Below, piece by piece: positions 5,915 to 20,600 of a stretch of 43,907 nucleotides of DNA; position 1 is the stretch's first letter, and every line of letters starts with the position of its first letter. A program made the translations under genes and the position numbers. The notes under the pieces are model-generated. The model saw only the letters and a list, made by a program, of their open reading frames with translations, did no database searches and was not told where the DNA came from. The stretch is from Flavobacteriales bacterium (GTDB lineage: Bacteria > Bacteroidota > Bacteroidia > Flavobacteriales_D > Crocinitomicaceae). The DNA lies in contig CANGIC010000002.1 of assembly GCA_947453795.1 (NCBI GenBank), positions 1-43,907 on the forward strand, written 5' to 3'.

Positions 5915-6106
5915 GTAGTGTGCTTTTGCAGATGACTTCAAAGATACACTGCATTGCAATTTCAGCGATAAAAAGTTGTCAACATCGACTAGGAAGCAGG
6001 TAATTTTTATTGAATTTTCAGGGATAAAAAACCGGTAAATAAAATACGTGTCGATTGTCGAAGTAGAGACTGAAAAAGAACAAAATCCACCGACTGATCA
6101 ACTACC

Positions 6107-6118
6107 GACTGATCAGTC
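6107..6118. promoter_or_regulatory. 12-bp perfect palindrome GACTGATCAGTC
   Basis: The palindrome is preceded 15 bp upstream by a partial copy (GACTGATCA, 6092-6100). It lies in the gap between two minus-strand small genes, just past the terminator of the upstream one. It could be an operator for a dimeric regulator or simply part of a repeat. Confidence 0.3.
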
Positions 6119-6127
6119 AAAAAAAAT

Positions 6128-6151
6128 GCCCTCGGGCCGGAATCCGAGGGC
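6128..6151 (-). terminator. Rho-independent terminator of the 6159-6569 gene
   Basis: GCCCTCGG/CCGAGGGC forms an 8-bp GC-rich stem with an 8-nt loop. On the minus strand it is followed by ATTTTTTTTG, and it starts 7 bp past the stop of the minus-strand gene. Confidence 0.88.
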
Positions 6152-6158
6152 AAAACCA

Positions 6159-7093: not shown

Positions 7094-7489
7094 TTAGATA
7101 GTTACCCGATACACATCTGTTTTGTTTCGGGAAATATCTGGAACGATAAATCCGCCGGGTTCAGGAATTTCCTCTTTTAAAGTGAATGATTTACATCCTT
7201 TAGGCAGACCTTTAAAGATGAGGGTGAAGTTATACACGCCATTGTGGAAGATCCTAGTCCATTGTGGTGCGAGTGAAATTCCATCCCAATGCACCAACTG
7301 AATTCTTTGTCCGTCATCACATATGAGGTAGGTCGTTTTCCAAATGCGAACTCCCATTCCGAATTCACAGGGAATAGAGCAATGAACAATCACTTGACGT
7401 TCCTCTTCGATTTTCGGTTTCACCGAAATCTTTATTTTGGTTTTGGGTTTTGCGACAAGGGTGTCTGTATCTGACATTTGGAAACTCAT
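7094..7489 (-). CDS. Small beta-rich protein, family member 1 of 3
   Basis: 131 aa from the ATG at 7489; the track start is a TTG. After a charged leader rich in Lys, the domain reads MGVRIWKTTYLICDDGQRIQ, then DGISLAP, then FTLIFKGLPKGCKSFTLKEE. The same order of blocks (xIxxxxTYxxxxxGxxxxL, GIxxxP, (Y/F)xLxFxxLPKG, IxE) recurs in the products of 10160-10612 and 11863-12342, so I read the three as divergent paralogs of one predicted beta-sandwich domain common in Bacteroidota. No signal peptide is seen, so it is probably cytoplasmic. Function unknown. Confidence 0.6.
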   Translation of the reverse strand: MSFQMSDTDTLVAKPKTKIKISVKPKIEEERQVIVHCSIPCEFGMGVRIWKTTYLICDDGQRIQLVHWDGISLAPQWTRIFHNGVYNFTLIFKGLPKGCKSFTLKEEIPEPGGFIVPDISRNKTDVYRVTI

Positions 7490-7764
7490 GACATGTATTT
7501 TAAGCAAAATACAACGAAATAGCGGTTTTACCTCATGTTGGATGGACTATTTGAGAAGAAAAAAAGAGATGCCGCTCACTTCCAGGCAAAATAATTCAGA
7601 TATATGTGTCTTGAATGTGTGCTTTATGAATCGTGAAACCTTGAATCTTGAATTTCGGATCTAATTAAAGTAATCGAAATACATCATCTGTGATCGTCGA
7701 TGAATAGATGGCACCTGACTTATTTTGGGCTTTCGGCAAACGACTTCTCTAAAAAAGGAGAGTG

Positions 7765-8193: not shown

Positions 8194-8249
8194 AGATCTA
8201 TAAATTATTAGTGGTTACAAAGTTTAATTTGGGGTAAAAGTTGGCCCCG

Positions 8250-8270
8250 TGGGCGATATTTCATCGCCCA
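8250..8270 (-). terminator. Hairpin after the ECF sigma gene
   Basis: TGGGCGAT/ATCGCCCA forms a perfect 8-bp stem with a 5-nt loop, 24 bp past the sigma factor stop on the minus strand. A short AACTTTT follows after about 10 nt, so it may terminate or attenuate between the sigma gene and the helical-protein gene. Confidence 0.5.
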
Positions 8271-8294
8271 ACAGTGACCACAGCTTCAGGTTAG

Positions 8295-8819: not shown

Positions 8820-8894
8820 ATACCAGTTGTTTTAGTTGTTTGCAGTACCTAAAGGTTACCCCCCATATATAGGTGTTCTAAAATCGAGTGCCGA

Positions 8895-8978
8895 CTTCCC
8901 TGATTTTTAGTCACAATCATATACCCATAGTATAAGGCATACACCATGTGATATGATCCATAACTGAAACCAGGGAAG
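8895..8978. other. Long nested hairpin (84 nt) in the 340-bp intergenic gap
   Basis: The gap 8820-9159 has no gene. Within it nested, co-centred inverted repeats are visible: CTTCCCTG (8895-8902) with CAGGGAAG (8971-8978), TTT-T-AGT (8904-8911, one T bulged) with ACTGAAA (8963-8969), ATCATAT (8916-8922) with ATATGAT (8951-8957), CAT with ATG, and GTAT (8930-8933) with ATAC (8939-8942) around loop AAGGC. By hand about 29 base pairs form in 84 nt. It lies 75 bp upstream of the ECF sigma start on its strand, so it may be a 5' leader structure, a separate RNA or a MITE-like element. The rest of the gap shows only AT-rich sequence and a G-run. Confidence 0.5.
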
Positions 8979-9159
8979 GACACATCTAATCCTTATCGCT
9001 CCGGAGAGAAATAAGTAGAAATTCTATAGTAAAGGGGGGTGGGATTTTACACGCCGTGCTGTTAACGCATGACTTTTAAATAAGTAACAATCTTTTTTGA
9101 TATTTTTTCGAAATAAAACACATCTTATTGTAATTCAATACATTAACTCTTGATATTTT

Positions 9160-10029
9160 TTATTCCTCCCGCCTAACTCGACGCATATCCTCGCGTTCGC
9201 GAACAAGTTTAGTGCAATATTCCCACGCACGGGCATTCAATTGTTGGGCCGTTCCATTGGTATTGCCAAAGCCCGCATTTCCTCTCATACGGTTTGACGT
9301 ATAAAAAGTAACGCCATTGAACAAACCCCACGCATTTGTGCCCAAGTCCTTCATTTCGCCTTGAATGGATTGCATCATTTCACGTCGTCTTTTTCTTGAA
9401 CTACGCAGTGAATCGATCTCCCTATTTATTGTTCGTTCGTTTACTTTAGGTTCGGGAAACATGTATTCCAGAAAATCATAGATTTCATCTTTGCCGATTT
9501 CGCGATTCGCCAACTCCTTGGACAACTGCATTTGTTCCCATTTGCCCTGCTCATAGTTGTTCAGCATCACACGGATATCTTCGTCTGTCATCTCCAAACG
9601 ATGGGTGTGCTTGATGCGCAAATTATAAAGCTCACGTGAAAATTGGTTCTCACAGCGAAACATATAATTGGACAAACCAAGGAAAATTTTGGAGGACTGA
9701 TCGTGCGAATTACCTATAATTAAATAATGTTCGGCACGGTCATTCACCAATGTCATCGGATTACTATCCTTCAAAAATGCCAAAATGCGCTTGCCTTTCT
9801 GAAATTGTTCGAAACCGATGCACTTAAAATTGGAAACACCCTCTATGCGTTCCACCAAATTCATCAAGTCCGCATTGTAAAATGGCTCATACATTCCTGA
9901 ACACACACTTAGGATTTGCCCATTGTCGGTGCGCGTTATGGCAAAGCGATTCGATTTTTCGCCATGGCTGGTTAGCAGCTCTTCACGATTGACATCCCAA
10001 TCGATTTCCATTTTTAAAGATTTTTTCAT
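9160..10029 (-). CDS. DUF932-family protein (plasmid/phage-like)
   Basis: 289 aa from the ATG at 10029; the track start at 10056 is a TTG. The N-terminal half matches the DUF932 pattern (FAITRTDNGQILSVCSGMYE, then a segment where an asparagine-aromatic pair is conserved, ECNQ-like CENQFSREL). The C-terminal part (NAWGLFNGVTFYTSNRMRG, GNTNGTAQQLNARAWEYC) fits the family's C-terminal block. DUF932 proteins are widespread on plasmids, phages and integrative elements; their biochemical role is not settled. A basic coil (SLRSSRKRRREM) lies at about residue 215. No other phage gene is adjacent. Confidence 0.65.
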   Translation of the reverse strand: MKKSLKMEIDWDVNREELLTSHGEKSNRFAITRTDNGQILSVCSGMYEPFYNADLMNLVERIEGVSNFKCIGFEQFQKGKRILAFLKDSNPMTLVNDRAEHYLIIGNSHDQSSKIFLGLSNYMFRCENQFSRELYNLRIKHTHRLEMTDEDIRVMLNNYEQGKWEQMQLSKELANREIGKDEIYDFLEYMFPEPKVNERTINREIDSLRSSRKRRREMMQSIQGEMKDLGTNAWGLFNGVTFYTSNRMRGNAGFGNTNGTAQQLNARAWEYCTKLVREREDMRRVRREE

Positions 10030-10159
10030 AACTAAACATGTTTTAATGTTCTGCAAATAAAATATGTAGTTCGGTATGCTTAGTACGCACTGAAAAAAAA
10101 TCTTTACTTTTTTTATCGCATCACTTCCGGATCAGCTTTTGGAAAATAGTCACCTATCA

Positions 10160-10612
10160 CTAAATTTGCACGGCCTTCACCATGTCAATTTGGATATTGA
10201 AAAAGTCGAAATTTTCACCAGACACATGATGAGCAGCACTTATTTCCTCTTTATCCTCCATAAATTCCGGCTCTATGATTTCGTATACTCCATCTTCCTG
10301 CGGAATGGCTTCAAAGTAAAGGGAATAGAACTGCCAATCACGTTGCGATTCGAAATAATGCTTATTCGGAGAAAAAGATATTCCATTTGTATTCAGCAGC
10401 TTATATACCTTCTTTCCATTCCTTTCGCGCATATACGTTTCTGGTGAAATTTGAATCCAACCCCCATTGTTGTAAATACTGTTAAAGGTGGAATATCCAA
10501 AATCCACTTTCGTAAAACTCGGAGTGATCGTTATCCTTAAAAGGGTTGGATTGTCAGAAATTCCCTCATTCGGAACATGGGGAAACAAGTATGATTTCGT
10601 TGATTTTTTCAT
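10160..10612 (-). CDS. Small beta-rich protein, family member 2 of 3, coupled to WYL regulator
   Basis: 150 aa, ATG start overlapping the WYL regulator stop as ATGA, which implies translational coupling. The domain contains IYNNGGWIQISPETYMRERN, then GISFSPNKHYF, then FYSLYFEAIPQEDGVYEIIE. These align by eye with IYINGGWIQMHPSCYIRP, GIPIAPTKYHF and YTLYFPALPKGTTMIDVIE of the 11863 product, including the NGGWIQ block, so the two are clear paralogs. The C-terminal FDFFNIQI also matches FNFFSVSV. No signal peptide. Function unknown; its coupling suggests it acts with, or is controlled by, the WYL protein. Confidence 0.65.
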   Translation of the reverse strand: MKKSTKSYLFPHVPNEGISDNPTLLRITITPSFTKVDFGYSTFNSIYNNGGWIQISPETYMRERNGKKVYKLLNTNGISFSPNKHYFESQRDWQFYSLYFEAIPQEDGVYEIIEPEFMEDKEEISAAHHVSGENFDFFNIQIDMVKAVQI

Positions 10613-11862: not shown

Positions 11863-12342
11863 ATGAACACAAAAACAGTTACCCCGGAAAAAGAAGAATT
11901 GGAAACACTTACTCCAAAGAAAAAACCTCAGGTCATCAAGCGACCAGTGATTGAAGAAGGACCAGATTCGGATGTTGCCATCAGTGAAATTGAACTCAAT
12001 GACGAGCTCACACGCATTGATTTCTTTTACATTTCCTCCAGAATTTACATCAATGGTGGATGGATTCAAATGCACCCATCGTGCTACATTCGTCCTCACG
12101 GCACCGACTTAAAACTGCAAATGATCAAGGCCGAAGGAATTCCTATTGCACCAACAAAGTACCATTTCCAATGTCAAGGTCAGGCGCACAGCTACACCCT
12201 CTACTTCCCCGCTCTTCCCAAAGGAACGACAATGATCGATGTCATAGAGCGCGACGGCAATTTCCCGGATGACTTCAATTTCTTTTCTGTGAGCGTACGC
12301 GAAAACCTTCCGATAGAAATCCGTTTCATTAGCGAAAACTAA
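11863..12342 (+). CDS. Small beta-rich protein, family member 3 of 3
   Basis: 159 aa, ATG start. A charged, Pro/Lys-rich leader of about 45 residues precedes a domain with IYINGGWIQMHPSCYIRP (about 61-78), GIPIAP (92-97) and YTLYFPALPKG (111-121). It is closest to the 10160 product and more distantly related to the 7094 product. There is no signal peptide or TM segment. It begins a two-gene unit with the coiled-coil gene 9 bp downstream. The 273-bp upstream gap, shared with the divergent WYL gene, is AT-rich with no clear operator. Confidence 0.6.
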   Translation: MNTKTVTPEKEELETLTPKKKPQVIKRPVIEEGPDSDVAISEIELNDELTRIDFFYISSRIYINGGWIQMHPSCYIRPHGTDLKLQMIKAEGIPIAPTKYHFQCQGQAHSYTLYFPALPKGTTMIDVIERDGNFPDDFNFFSVSVRENLPIEIRFISEN

Positions 12343-15840: not shown

Positions 15841-16920
15841 CTATGTCAATGTTTTCAATTTCTCCTGAAAACGCAGAAAAATTGGATCATCTTTACCGCG
15901 TACTTGACCAATAAAAGAAATGTATCCGCGCAAGCGATTTAAAAAAATAAACTGGTCGCTTTCGCGCACTACAGGTGAATTTTTAAAGTGCTTCGCTGCA
16001 GCAGCGGTGGGACCATTTTTTTCGAAATCAAAGAGCATTGCTCTAACTTGACGGATTTGACTTCGTTTTACGTTTGCCTTCGTATTCACAACAATTCCCG
16101 TCACTTCCTTTCTTCTACCTGTGCCTTTTTGACGGATTTTCTTTTCGTTGATAACAAACCGATTGGATTCCACAATTGAACGAATTTGAGCGATTTCCGC
16201 ATCATGAAAGGGCATAACTGCAGAGAACGTAAGATCGTCAGCATAACGTGTGTAAGTCCAACCACGCTCGGCTGATAATTTTCTCATGGCCTCGTCCATT
16301 TCAGCGCAAATAAAATTGGTAAGGATTGGTGATGTAGGCGCGCCTTGCGGCAAATGACCTTTATAAGTTGTCAGCAATGTCAAAACCGTAGCCGTTTGCT
16401 CGTTGAATCGGAAGCGGTCAGAAAGAAAAATTTGCTTGACACGTTGCGCATGAATGGAAGGAAAAAAGTCCTTTATATCCAAATTGAGCACATACGGTTT
16501 ACCAACATGAGGCAACGCGTTTTGTACGATTGGTGATGCGGGGGTTGCGTTCTCATCGTTGATGACAAATCCAAAAACAGCAGGGTCTGGATTACACCTG
16601 TACAAGGACTGAAGTCCATCATTCATTAACCGTTGAACATGCATTAACCTTGGCTCTGGCGCTTCAATGTTACGCGCTCCACCCCTTTTTTTTGCAATAG
16701 AAAAGCTGCGGTATTTGGGTGTATTGAGGATTTGTTCGAGAACTGCGCGTGGCACCTGAAAATAGGCACACACATCTTGTGCATTTTCCAAGGAGAGCAA
16801 GAGTCCCGCAGAAATCATCTGTTTTGGCACCCCTGGAAAAAGTTTGAGGATTAAGTGTTGAGAACGAAGTGTTTTCTTTAGTTCCGGACCTTGCTGTTCA
16901 ACAAATTCGTACAATGTCAT
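15841..16920 (-). CDS. Retron-type reverse transcriptase
   Basis: A 359-aa RNA-directed DNA polymerase predicted to make branched msDNA from the RNA encoded just upstream. Motifs in order: YRSFSIAKKRGGARNIEAP (about 70-88), NALPH (134-138, region before motif A typical of retron RTs), LDIKDFFPSI (motif A, catalytic Asp about 148), GHLPQGAPTSPILTN (190-202), YTRYADDLTFS (YADD 226-229), NEKKI (258-262), VTGIVVN (VTG 273-275, retron Y-region) and a thumb ending RGYISFIGQVRGKDDPIF. No maturase, endonuclease or fused effector domain is present. The length is ordinary for the family. The ATG is 18 bp past the RNA's 3' repeat. It is convergent with malic enzyme. Confidence 0.9.
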   Translation of the reverse strand: MTLYEFVEQQGPELKKTLRSQHLILKLFPGVPKQMISAGLLLSLENAQDVCAYFQVPRAVLEQILNTPKYRSFSIAKKRGGARNIEAPEPRLMHVQRLMNDGLQSLYRCNPDPAVFGFVINDENATPASPIVQNALPHVGKPYVLNLDIKDFFPSIHAQRVKQIFLSDRFRFNEQTATVLTLLTTYKGHLPQGAPTSPILTNFICAEMDEAMRKLSAERGWTYTRYADDLTFSAVMPFHDAEIAQIRSIVESNRFVINEKKIRQKGTGRRKEVTGIVVNTKANVKRSQIRQVRAMLFDFEKNGPTAAAAKHFKNSPVVRESDQFIFLNRLRGYISFIGQVRGKDDPIFLRFQEKLKTLT

Positions 16921-16937
16921 GTGATGTTTTTAAAAAA

Positions 16938-17099
16938 GAGAGCCGTTGCTTCTTATCTTCAATTTAGATGTTTCGGCGAAAGTGGAGCGCAGCGGAACTT
17001 CGACGAAACATCGAAGTTCATGGCCTCCATTCTCAATTGGGTTGCAGGTGCACAACCACTTATCGGTCAGTCCGACACATAAGTTGGGCAACGGCTCTC
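16938..17099 (-). ncRNA. Candidate retron msr-msd RNA
   Basis: Reading the minus strand, GAGAGCCGTTGC (a1, 17099-17088) and GCAACGGCTCTC (a2, 16949-16938) form a perfect 12-bp inverted repeat bounding 138 nt. Between them are ACTTAT/ATAAGT enclosing CGG-ACTGA-CCG, then GGTTG/CAACC with an 8-nt loop (msr-like hairpins), then an msd-like hairpin GAACTTCGA-TGTTTCG-TCGAAGTTC supported by outer TGGAG/CTCCA and CAATT/AATTG. TTTTTT follows a2 directly and may end the transcript. The RT start is 18 nt downstream. The whole order a1-msr-msd-a2-RT is that of known retrons. The branching guanosine cannot be assigned with certainty. Confidence 0.75.
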
Positions 17100-17106
17100 G
17101 TAACGA

Positions 17107-18141
17107 TTAAAATGGTGTATCTCCTAATTCTTCCAATCTTTCACGATTTATTGAAAATCGCTCGAGATGGTCGTTTACTGAAATGATTCGCGTATAATTG
17201 GCGTCTCGGGCATATTGAATTCGCTCTAAGGAACCGCTTCTATTTTTGGCCAAGATCAACTCGGTAATGCCATCTGTTGTATTTCCATCCTCATCCTGCA
17301 TAAAACCATAATATTCTGGTCTGTAGAGGAAAAAAACTTTGTCCGCGTCTTGTTCAATCGAACCACTTTCTCTCAAATCGGAGAGTATCGGTCGTTTATC
17401 TCCTCCACGTGTCTCTACCATTCGGCTCAACTGGCTAGAAGCAATAAGTAGGACATTAAATTCTCGTGCAACGTTCTTTAATTCTCGACTGACATAACTC
17501 ATCTCCATTTCACGGTTATGACGGTATCGATCTGAGCTTATGAGCTGGATGTAATCGATAAAAACCACTTTCACCCCATCTTCCTCAACATGCTTTTTGC
17601 AACGTTCACGAAGAACTTGAAGTGACTTCGTGGGTTGGTCACTAATCCACAATTTTCGCGATTGAAACTCATTTTTCACAGAATCAATCAACTCCAATTC
17701 CAAGCGATTCAAAGACCCCGACATGATTTGATTCAATGAAATCCCTGACAAAGCTGCCACCATGCGTTTTACCAACAATCCTTCAGATAAATCAAAACTG
17801 CAATACAATACGGGAGTTTTCGTAGAAATATTCAAGGCCAGATTCATCAGTAGATGCGTTTTTCCCATAGCCGGACGTCCGCCAAAAACTACATACTCCC
17901 CTTGAAACAAGGGAACACGTTGATCAAAATCTTCCATTCCCGTTTCAATGATTTCTCCCGCTACCCCAAAATCACTTATGTGCGAAGAAAAAATATCGAT
18001 GGCTTTTTTTGCCGGTAGTGAGGAATTCTCACGAAACTCAATTTCACGAACAATAGCGTTTAATTCCGCCAAGATGTGCTGGTCATCTTTGTTTTGATCC
18101 TCAATAATCTTTCGTAATCGGTGCTGAATAGATGTATGCAT
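17107..18141 (-). CDS. DnaB C-terminal-type RecA-fold ATPase (replicative helicase-like)
   Basis: A 344-aa protein with a RecA-like DnaB-C core but without the normal DnaB N-terminal primase-binding domain; only about 60 residues precede the core. Walker A is GGRPAMGKT (87-95), Walker B is VVFIDYIQL (192-200), with SQLSR (236-240) and DLRESGSIEQDAD (255-267), which are strong DnaB signatures. Helicase activity is inferred; the length suggests an accessory or phage/plasmid-type form rather than the chromosomal DnaB. It stops 8 bp before the a1 repeat of the retron RNA on the same strand, so it could be cotranscribed with the retron. Confidence 0.8.
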   Translation of the reverse strand: MHTSIQHRLRKIIEDQNKDDQHILAELNAIVREIEFRENSSLPAKKAIDIFSSHISDFGVAGEIIETGMEDFDQRVPLFQGEYVVFGGRPAMGKTHLLMNLALNISTKTPVLYCSFDLSEGLLVKRMVAALSGISLNQIMSGSLNRLELELIDSVKNEFQSRKLWISDQPTKSLQVLRERCKKHVEEDGVKVVFIDYIQLISSDRYRHNREMEMSYVSRELKNVAREFNVLLIASSQLSRMVETRGGDKRPILSDLRESGSIEQDADKVFFLYRPEYYGFMQDEDGNTTDGITELILAKNRSGSLERIQYARDANYTRIISVNDHLERFSINRERLEELGDTPF

Positions 18142-20105: not shown

Positions 20106-20600
20106 ATGAAAACAAATCTTGATCTTATTTCCGAGCAACTTCCTTACTTCCGTGCCATTGCGAAACGTTCTCTCCCGAATCATTATTTGCACCTTGCCGA
20201 AGACCTTGCTCAAGACGCCATCATCAAGGCCATTGAAAACATCAGCAAATTTGATCCCGCCAAAGGAAACTTCAAAAGCTGGTTGTATAGAGTCACTCAA
20301 AACCTATGTTTCGACGCCATCAGAAGCATGAAAAAAATGGATTTGGTGCCATTGAACGGTACAATCATGCACAACGACACTTCCGAACAAAGGGATCTTG
20401 AGCAAACCCAACTTCGCGTGATTCGCAAAGCCATGGCTTTTTTAAGTGACCGTGACCGTCAATTGATCACTTACCGATTTATGTATGGAATGAGTGGTCG
20501 CGAAATGGCTCAGTTAATGGACATTCCTGAAAGTCAAATTAATATCTACTTTCAACGCGCAAAGAATCGTTTGAAAGAACTTTGTAAAGAGGCCGCTTAG
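20106..20600 (+). CDS. RNA polymerase ECF sigma factor (sigma-70 family)
   Basis: 164 aa. Region 2 is at about residues 10-80 (HLAEDLAQDAIIKAIENISKF, NFKSWLYRVTQNLCFDAIRS) and region 4 at about 110-160 (AFLSDRDRQLITYRFMYGMS, GREMAQLMDIPESQINIYFQ). The ATG is well placed. A short hairpin ACATTAA-aactgc-TTAATGT lies 23 bp upstream (20064-20083), and the 266-bp gap before it is very AT-rich. A terminator overlaps its stop, separating it from the downstream lipoprotein gene. Close to, but not an obvious paralog of, the 8295 sigma factor. Confidence 0.88.
   Translation: MKTNLDLISEQLPYFRAIAKRSLPNHYLHLAEDLAQDAIIKAIENISKFDPAKGNFKSWLYRVTQNLCFDAIRSMKKMDLVPLNGTIMHNDTSEQRDLEQTQLRVIRKAMAFLSDRDRQLITYRFMYGMSGREMAQLMDIPESQINIYFQRAKNRLKELCKEAA

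Follow-up and report, generated by a model that had tools for sequence, protein, structure and literature searches.

A long hairpin upstream of an ECF sigma factor gene in a Flavobacteriales bacterium is probably the main stem of a structured 5' leader RNA

Introduction

The usual account of ECF sigma factors is that anti-sigma proteins control them. In the window analysed here, a stretch of 43,907 nucleotides from a Flavobacteriales bacterium, the gene for such a factor is preceded by a long inverted repeat. This raises the question of whether the repeat is a site in the DNA, the remnant of a mobile element, a small RNA of its own or a part of the sigma factor mRNA. Our analysis suggests that the ECF sigma mRNA probably begins with a structured leader RNA at its 5' end, in which the repeat forms the main stem, P3. 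The features discussed below are collected in Table 1.

Table 1. Features of the leader and its flanking genes (positions in the window)
Feature	Position	Strand	Basis or remark
ECF sigma factor gene, 174 aa	8295..8819	(-)	Sigma70_r2, Sigma70_r4_2, TIGR02937
Putative structured 5' leader of the ECF sigma mRNA, about 240 nt	8820..9062	(-)	consensus fold
A-rich 27-nt segment into the start codon, candidate translation initiation region	8820..8846	(-)	six-species alignment
P1, 3' strand, GGGGGG, about 40 nt before the ATG	8859..8864	(-)	pairs with 9034-9039
P3, long hairpin (core 8895-8978) with outer extension	8886..8986	(-)	folding, six-species alignment
P2, small stem-loop CUUAUUUCUCUCCGGAGCGAUAAG	8992..9015	(-)	6/6 MFE folds
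P1, 5' strand, CCCCCC	9034..9039	(-)	pairs with 8859-8864
TTGTTACTTATT-N8-ATGCGTTA (GTTAC, 16 nt, CGTTA), candidate ECF-type promoter	9063..9090	(-)	alignment
DUF932/TIGR03299-like gene, upstream neighbour, ends before the leader	9160..10056	(-)	domain matches

A strong hairpin on the coding strand

The sequence-only reading of this DNA had described co-centred inverted repeats between a DUF932 gene (upstream) and the ECF sigma gene on one strand. Both genes lie in that order, with the minus strand as their coding strand, and the repeats are present: CTTCCCTGATTT at 8895-8906 recurs inverted as AAACCAGGGAAG at 8967-8978, and the nested arms have AAGGC as their common centre. When folded as RNA, the 84 nt from 8895 to 8978 form one long hairpin, as that reading had supposed. 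On the minus strand, the minimum free energy was -37.4 kcal/mol (z -6.7, 0/200 shuffles), with z ranging from -5.9 to -6.7 across folding tests, while on the plus strand it was -23.7 kcal/mol (z -4.3). The minus-strand fold is far stronger because several opposed positions form G-U pairs on that strand; it was the weaker, plus strand that the earlier reading had given. The hairpin ranked second among 14,608 segments of 84 nt, taken from both strands of the 43.9 kb in steps of 6 and corrected for base composition. The first rank was held by an ordinary GC-stem/U-tract terminator at about 6079; the GC-rich stem at about 6090-6155, which has its T-run on the minus strand, is an ordinary intrinsic terminator, adjoined by a second hairpin, GACTGATCA.

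The hairpin within a larger conserved unit

The paired region exceeds the arms that had been reported, with an outer helix spanning about 8859-9039, and P3 is part of a larger conserved unit of about 270 nt. Conservation sets in at TTGTTACTTATT, about 70 nt beyond the stop codon of DUF932, and extends as far as the start codon of the ECF gene. In our alignment of sequences from six species, the order from 5' to 3' is a promoter-like motif, a C-run, a small stem-loop, the long hairpin, a G-run, an A-rich segment and the ATG. The C6/G6 helix P1 is predicted in the MFE folds of 6/6 species, and 100% of its cells are paired over the six; for P2, the proportion is 92.6%. The A-rich segment is near-invariant and mostly unpaired in the predicted folds, and the mean unpaired probability from -20 to +12 was 0.67-0.82 across all six species at 37 C and 0.47-0.77 at 15 C. 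Of these parts, the earlier description had only P3; P1 and P2, as well as the promoter-like motif and the near-invariant segment next to the start codon, had escaped it.

Within P3, conservation is uneven: 17/24 columns of the 5' arm are invariant vs 7/24 of the 3' arm, and in one genome (G015) P3 is poorly preserved in its lower part. One possibility raised by the 5' arm is that of a leader-peptide attenuator, in which ATGTGTCCTTCC... opens a short upstream reading frame controlling the downstream gene. The ATG and the initial codons of this frame occur in 6/6 species. However, variable columns fall at codon positions 1/2/3 in the numbers 6/5/3, which does not resemble the pattern of a translated frame; in addition, the frames end at different points, giving peptides of 13 to 50 residues, and no terminator was found. 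We therefore regard the attenuator as hardly credible.

Distribution of the leader

In its own genome (2.59 Mb, 265 contigs, 92% complete), the leader was found by nucleotide search in a single copy. Among 60 relatives, strong matches occurred in five congeneric genomes, all directly upstream of the ECF orthologue, whose proteins are 85-91% identical; the leader stands directly before the ECF gene in 6/6 genomes with that orthologue. A nucleotide search of 240 family genomes with a relative's leader returned the same six and none beyond, and all six belong to one genus. A second match in G007 (contig C12) overlaps contig C50 at a contig end and represents the same locus, not an extra copy.

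The sequence-only reading had offered a structured RNA or a MITE as accounts of the hairpin and had pointed to conservation in relatives and to copies elsewhere in the genome as the observations that would bear on them. Conservation in six species, together with a strand-specific consensus fold, upholds the structured RNA, and no further copy was found in the genome, so the MITE falls away. More generally, the remnant of a MITE or similar mobile element, or a functionless hairpin, would explain a long inverted repeat in an intergenic gap. However, a dispersed repeat does not agree with one copy in the genome and the same place in six species, where identity exceeds that of fourfold sites, and we give this account very little credence.

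Weak nucleotide matches were also seen in other genomes, and those inspected look AT-rich and unrelated. Covariance-model matches outside the genus were weak (E 0.03-0.7) and were taken as chance; two of the alignments cover only the P1/P2 part or P1 alone, in AT-rich sequence. Rfam release 15 reported only a tRNA in the window and no family over the element, where the best of the weak matches had an E above 1 and scores lay far below gathering. A 17-nt piece of the 5' arm matches five viral contigs; a viral origin was rejected, as neither a relative of the ECF protein nor a match to the promoter motif turned up in the viral contigs.

Flanking genes

The unit of DUF932 gene, leader and ECF sigma gene recurs in six congeneric genomes, and the DUF932 and ECF genes co-occur in these same six. 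In G004, other genes follow a DUF932 homologue (44%), and neither the leader nor the ECF gene comes after it. Where contigs suffice, the synteny includes a polyphosphate kinase gene on one side and a malic enzyme gene on the other. The downstream neighbour of the ECF gene encodes a DIP1984/DUF6847 protein, and another strong fold lies between the two at 8203-8290, just downstream of the ECF gene. A domain search recognised no anti-sigma factor among the neighbours of the ECF gene; one for this ECF factor may be encoded elsewhere in the genome. The window also holds a second ECF sigma gene at 20106-20600 (+), with a gap of 266 nt upstream, whose product is about 33-37% identical to the orthologues of the first in relatives.

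A promoter-like motif and the small RNA alternative

Both TTGTTACTTATT and ATGCGTTA are invariant across the six species, and the pattern GTTAC-N16-CGTTA occurs in one copy in the genome. Judged from this conservation, the motif may act as a promoter. The 23S rRNA gene of G038 (G038:C1 around 2807281, L014) also carries TTGTTACTTATT at its 5' end; this match, which recurs in family f3 of the order and was not found when the window's own family was searched, is probably a coincidence.

A conserved promoter-like motif of its own would also suit a stand-alone trans-acting sRNA transcribed from the intergenic region, with the ECF gene served by its own promoter further down, and the conserved 5' arm could then be the seed region. 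Three observations argue against this scenario. First, no intrinsic terminator (GC stem and U-tract) was found on the minus strand between 8200 and 9250, which covers the intergenic region. Second, the 27 nt that directly precede the ATG are near-invariant too. Third, the element always adjoins the same gene. Thus, a separate sRNA appears unlikely, and we retain the interpretation as a leader of the ECF sigma mRNA.

Conservation of sequence and of structure

In pairwise comparisons of the species, the leader shows 67-91% identity vs 33-77% at fourfold sites of the ECF gene. Its identity to G024 and G007 (0.85-0.86) is higher than that of 3/5 nearby intergenic regions and close to that of a fourth; the fifth, probably a structured RNA in its own right, is more conserved than the leader. 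For the six sequences, the consensus fold in the sense direction reached -35.0 kcal/mol vs a shuffled mean of -18.5 kcal/mol (z -4.4, 0/300 as low), whereas the antisense consensus fold showed no signal against column shuffles (z +0.1). The 300 column shuffles preserve column composition and gaps, not dinucleotides. With G-U pairs forbidden, the arm mismatches counted in related sequences were 9 G-U vs 1 A-C, and an RNA on the sense strand is therefore indicated.

These results also bear on the hypothesis that the element works as DNA, as a palindromic operator or protein-binding site for the ECF promoter or as a cruciform. In the window, both strands of the element do fold better than shuffles, as such a palindrome would. 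However, the consensus fold vanishes in the antisense direction, G-U mismatches outnumber A-C ones 9:1, and the element is a poor palindrome in the relatives once G-U pairs are disallowed. A function as a DNA palindrome is thus most improbable.

Covariation was tested in three ways, of which the leave-one-out test alone was clearly significant. No compensatory double changes were kept in the alignment of six sequences, which are few and very similar, and the 20 further pair types seen among them were all one-sided. A substitution test that counted unique events, based on single-sequence structures, did not reach significance. In the leave-one-out test, 41 pair-keeping substitutions were observed in the sense direction vs 33.3 expected from permutation (p 0.0016), with p 0.17 for the antisense direction; these events are not independent, as they come from related species. 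Because conservation is much higher in the 5' arm than in the 3' arm, that of the leader could lie largely at the level of sequence.

The ECF protein of the window is closest to that of G019 (90%). Unlike the protein, the leader is nearer to those of G024, G010 and G007 (0.83-0.85) than to that of G019 (0.79); recombination, or a faster-changing leader in G019, is a possible reason.

Other loci in the window

A retron-like locus at 15841-18141 (-) is syntenic in G024 and G007. Its reverse transcriptase has its best PADLOC matches among the retron RT models for types XI/XII but, with 359 aa, lacks the domain fused to those; upstream in the locus lies a DnaB_C helicase gene. Its intergenic stretch at 16921-17106 (186 nt), bounded by the terminal inverted repeats GAGAGCCGTTGC/GCAACGGCTCTC, is 92% identical in two relatives and folds with a z of -6.5, which makes it a candidate msr-msd; Rfam made no call at the locus. 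In addition, the genes at 10160-10612(-) and 11863-12342(+) are clearly paralogous (32% over 99 aa, E 8e-20), and 7094-7507(-) shows a weak similarity over 39 aa to 11863-12342(+) (E 2e-5). A Pfam scan of 10160-10612 and 7094-7507 gave no match.

Comparison with known systems

Leaders of the rpoH/rpoS type control translation by occluding the start site, and the occlusion is relieved by heat or by sRNAs. The present leader resembles them in being folded and in standing before a sigma gene, a likeness that implies no homology; it differs in that its start is predicted to be largely open. Bacteroidetes mRNAs naturally lack Shine-Dalgarno sequences, and the account in PMC6847099 describes initiation as tuned by mRNA structure and by particular bases, for example A at -3. 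The open, A-rich start region of the leader fits this pattern.

Within the Flavobacteriales, 64 structured 5' regions have been catalogued in F. psychrophilum, in which the median 5' UTR is 24 bp (PMC9723704). These regions and the present leader are alike in being long folded 5' regions without an Rfam family. However, the targets that the main text of that study names, e.g. pheA, hisG, ftsY and alaS, differ from an ECF sigma gene, and the present leader is a prediction from sequence. Orphan candidates for structured RNA found by comparative genomics, such as Flavo-1, are likewise described as conserved intergenic folds with function unassigned (PMC2864571, PMC8040213), and matches to Flavo-1 are reported as sense or antisense of transcripts, undistinguished, in PMC9723704. 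Unlike the orphan motifs covered in these accounts, the leader is confined to a single genus, always precedes one gene and shows no covariation yet. It is probably a new, genus-restricted member of the orphan structured mRNA leaders.

Possible mechanism and significance

The fold, strand, conservation and position of the leader are results of computation; for its transcription, regulation, trigger and mechanism, we infer the following. Transcription would probably start just downstream of GTTAC-N16-CGTTA, which is perhaps recognised by the ECF factor itself; such autoregulation has no regulon backing because the motif occurs only once in the genome. In the transcript, P1 would close the folded unit, with P2 and the long P3 inside and the A-rich start region left open. 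We lean towards the view that the leader regulates the ECF sigma gene in cis, most likely by setting the sigma level post-transcriptionally. Candidate routes are mRNA stability or processing, or a protein, sRNA or ligand that binds the conserved 5' arm. Control by termination is unlikely because no terminator was found, and since the predicted fold leaves the start largely open, stability, processing or 5'-arm binding would be likelier than plain occlusion. Any single one of these modes can be put forward only tentatively. Bolder still, and rather doubtful in our judgement, is the idea that an autoregulated ECF sigma factor is restrained by the folded leader, not by an anti-sigma factor, and that the leader itself directly senses the signal, as a genus-restricted class of riboregulator.

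Riboregulation is less studied in Flavobacteriales, and this leader provides a small, well-bounded candidate. Together with an ECF gene that has no recognised anti-sigma neighbour, it suggests that control at the level of RNA may operate on such sigma factors in this order.
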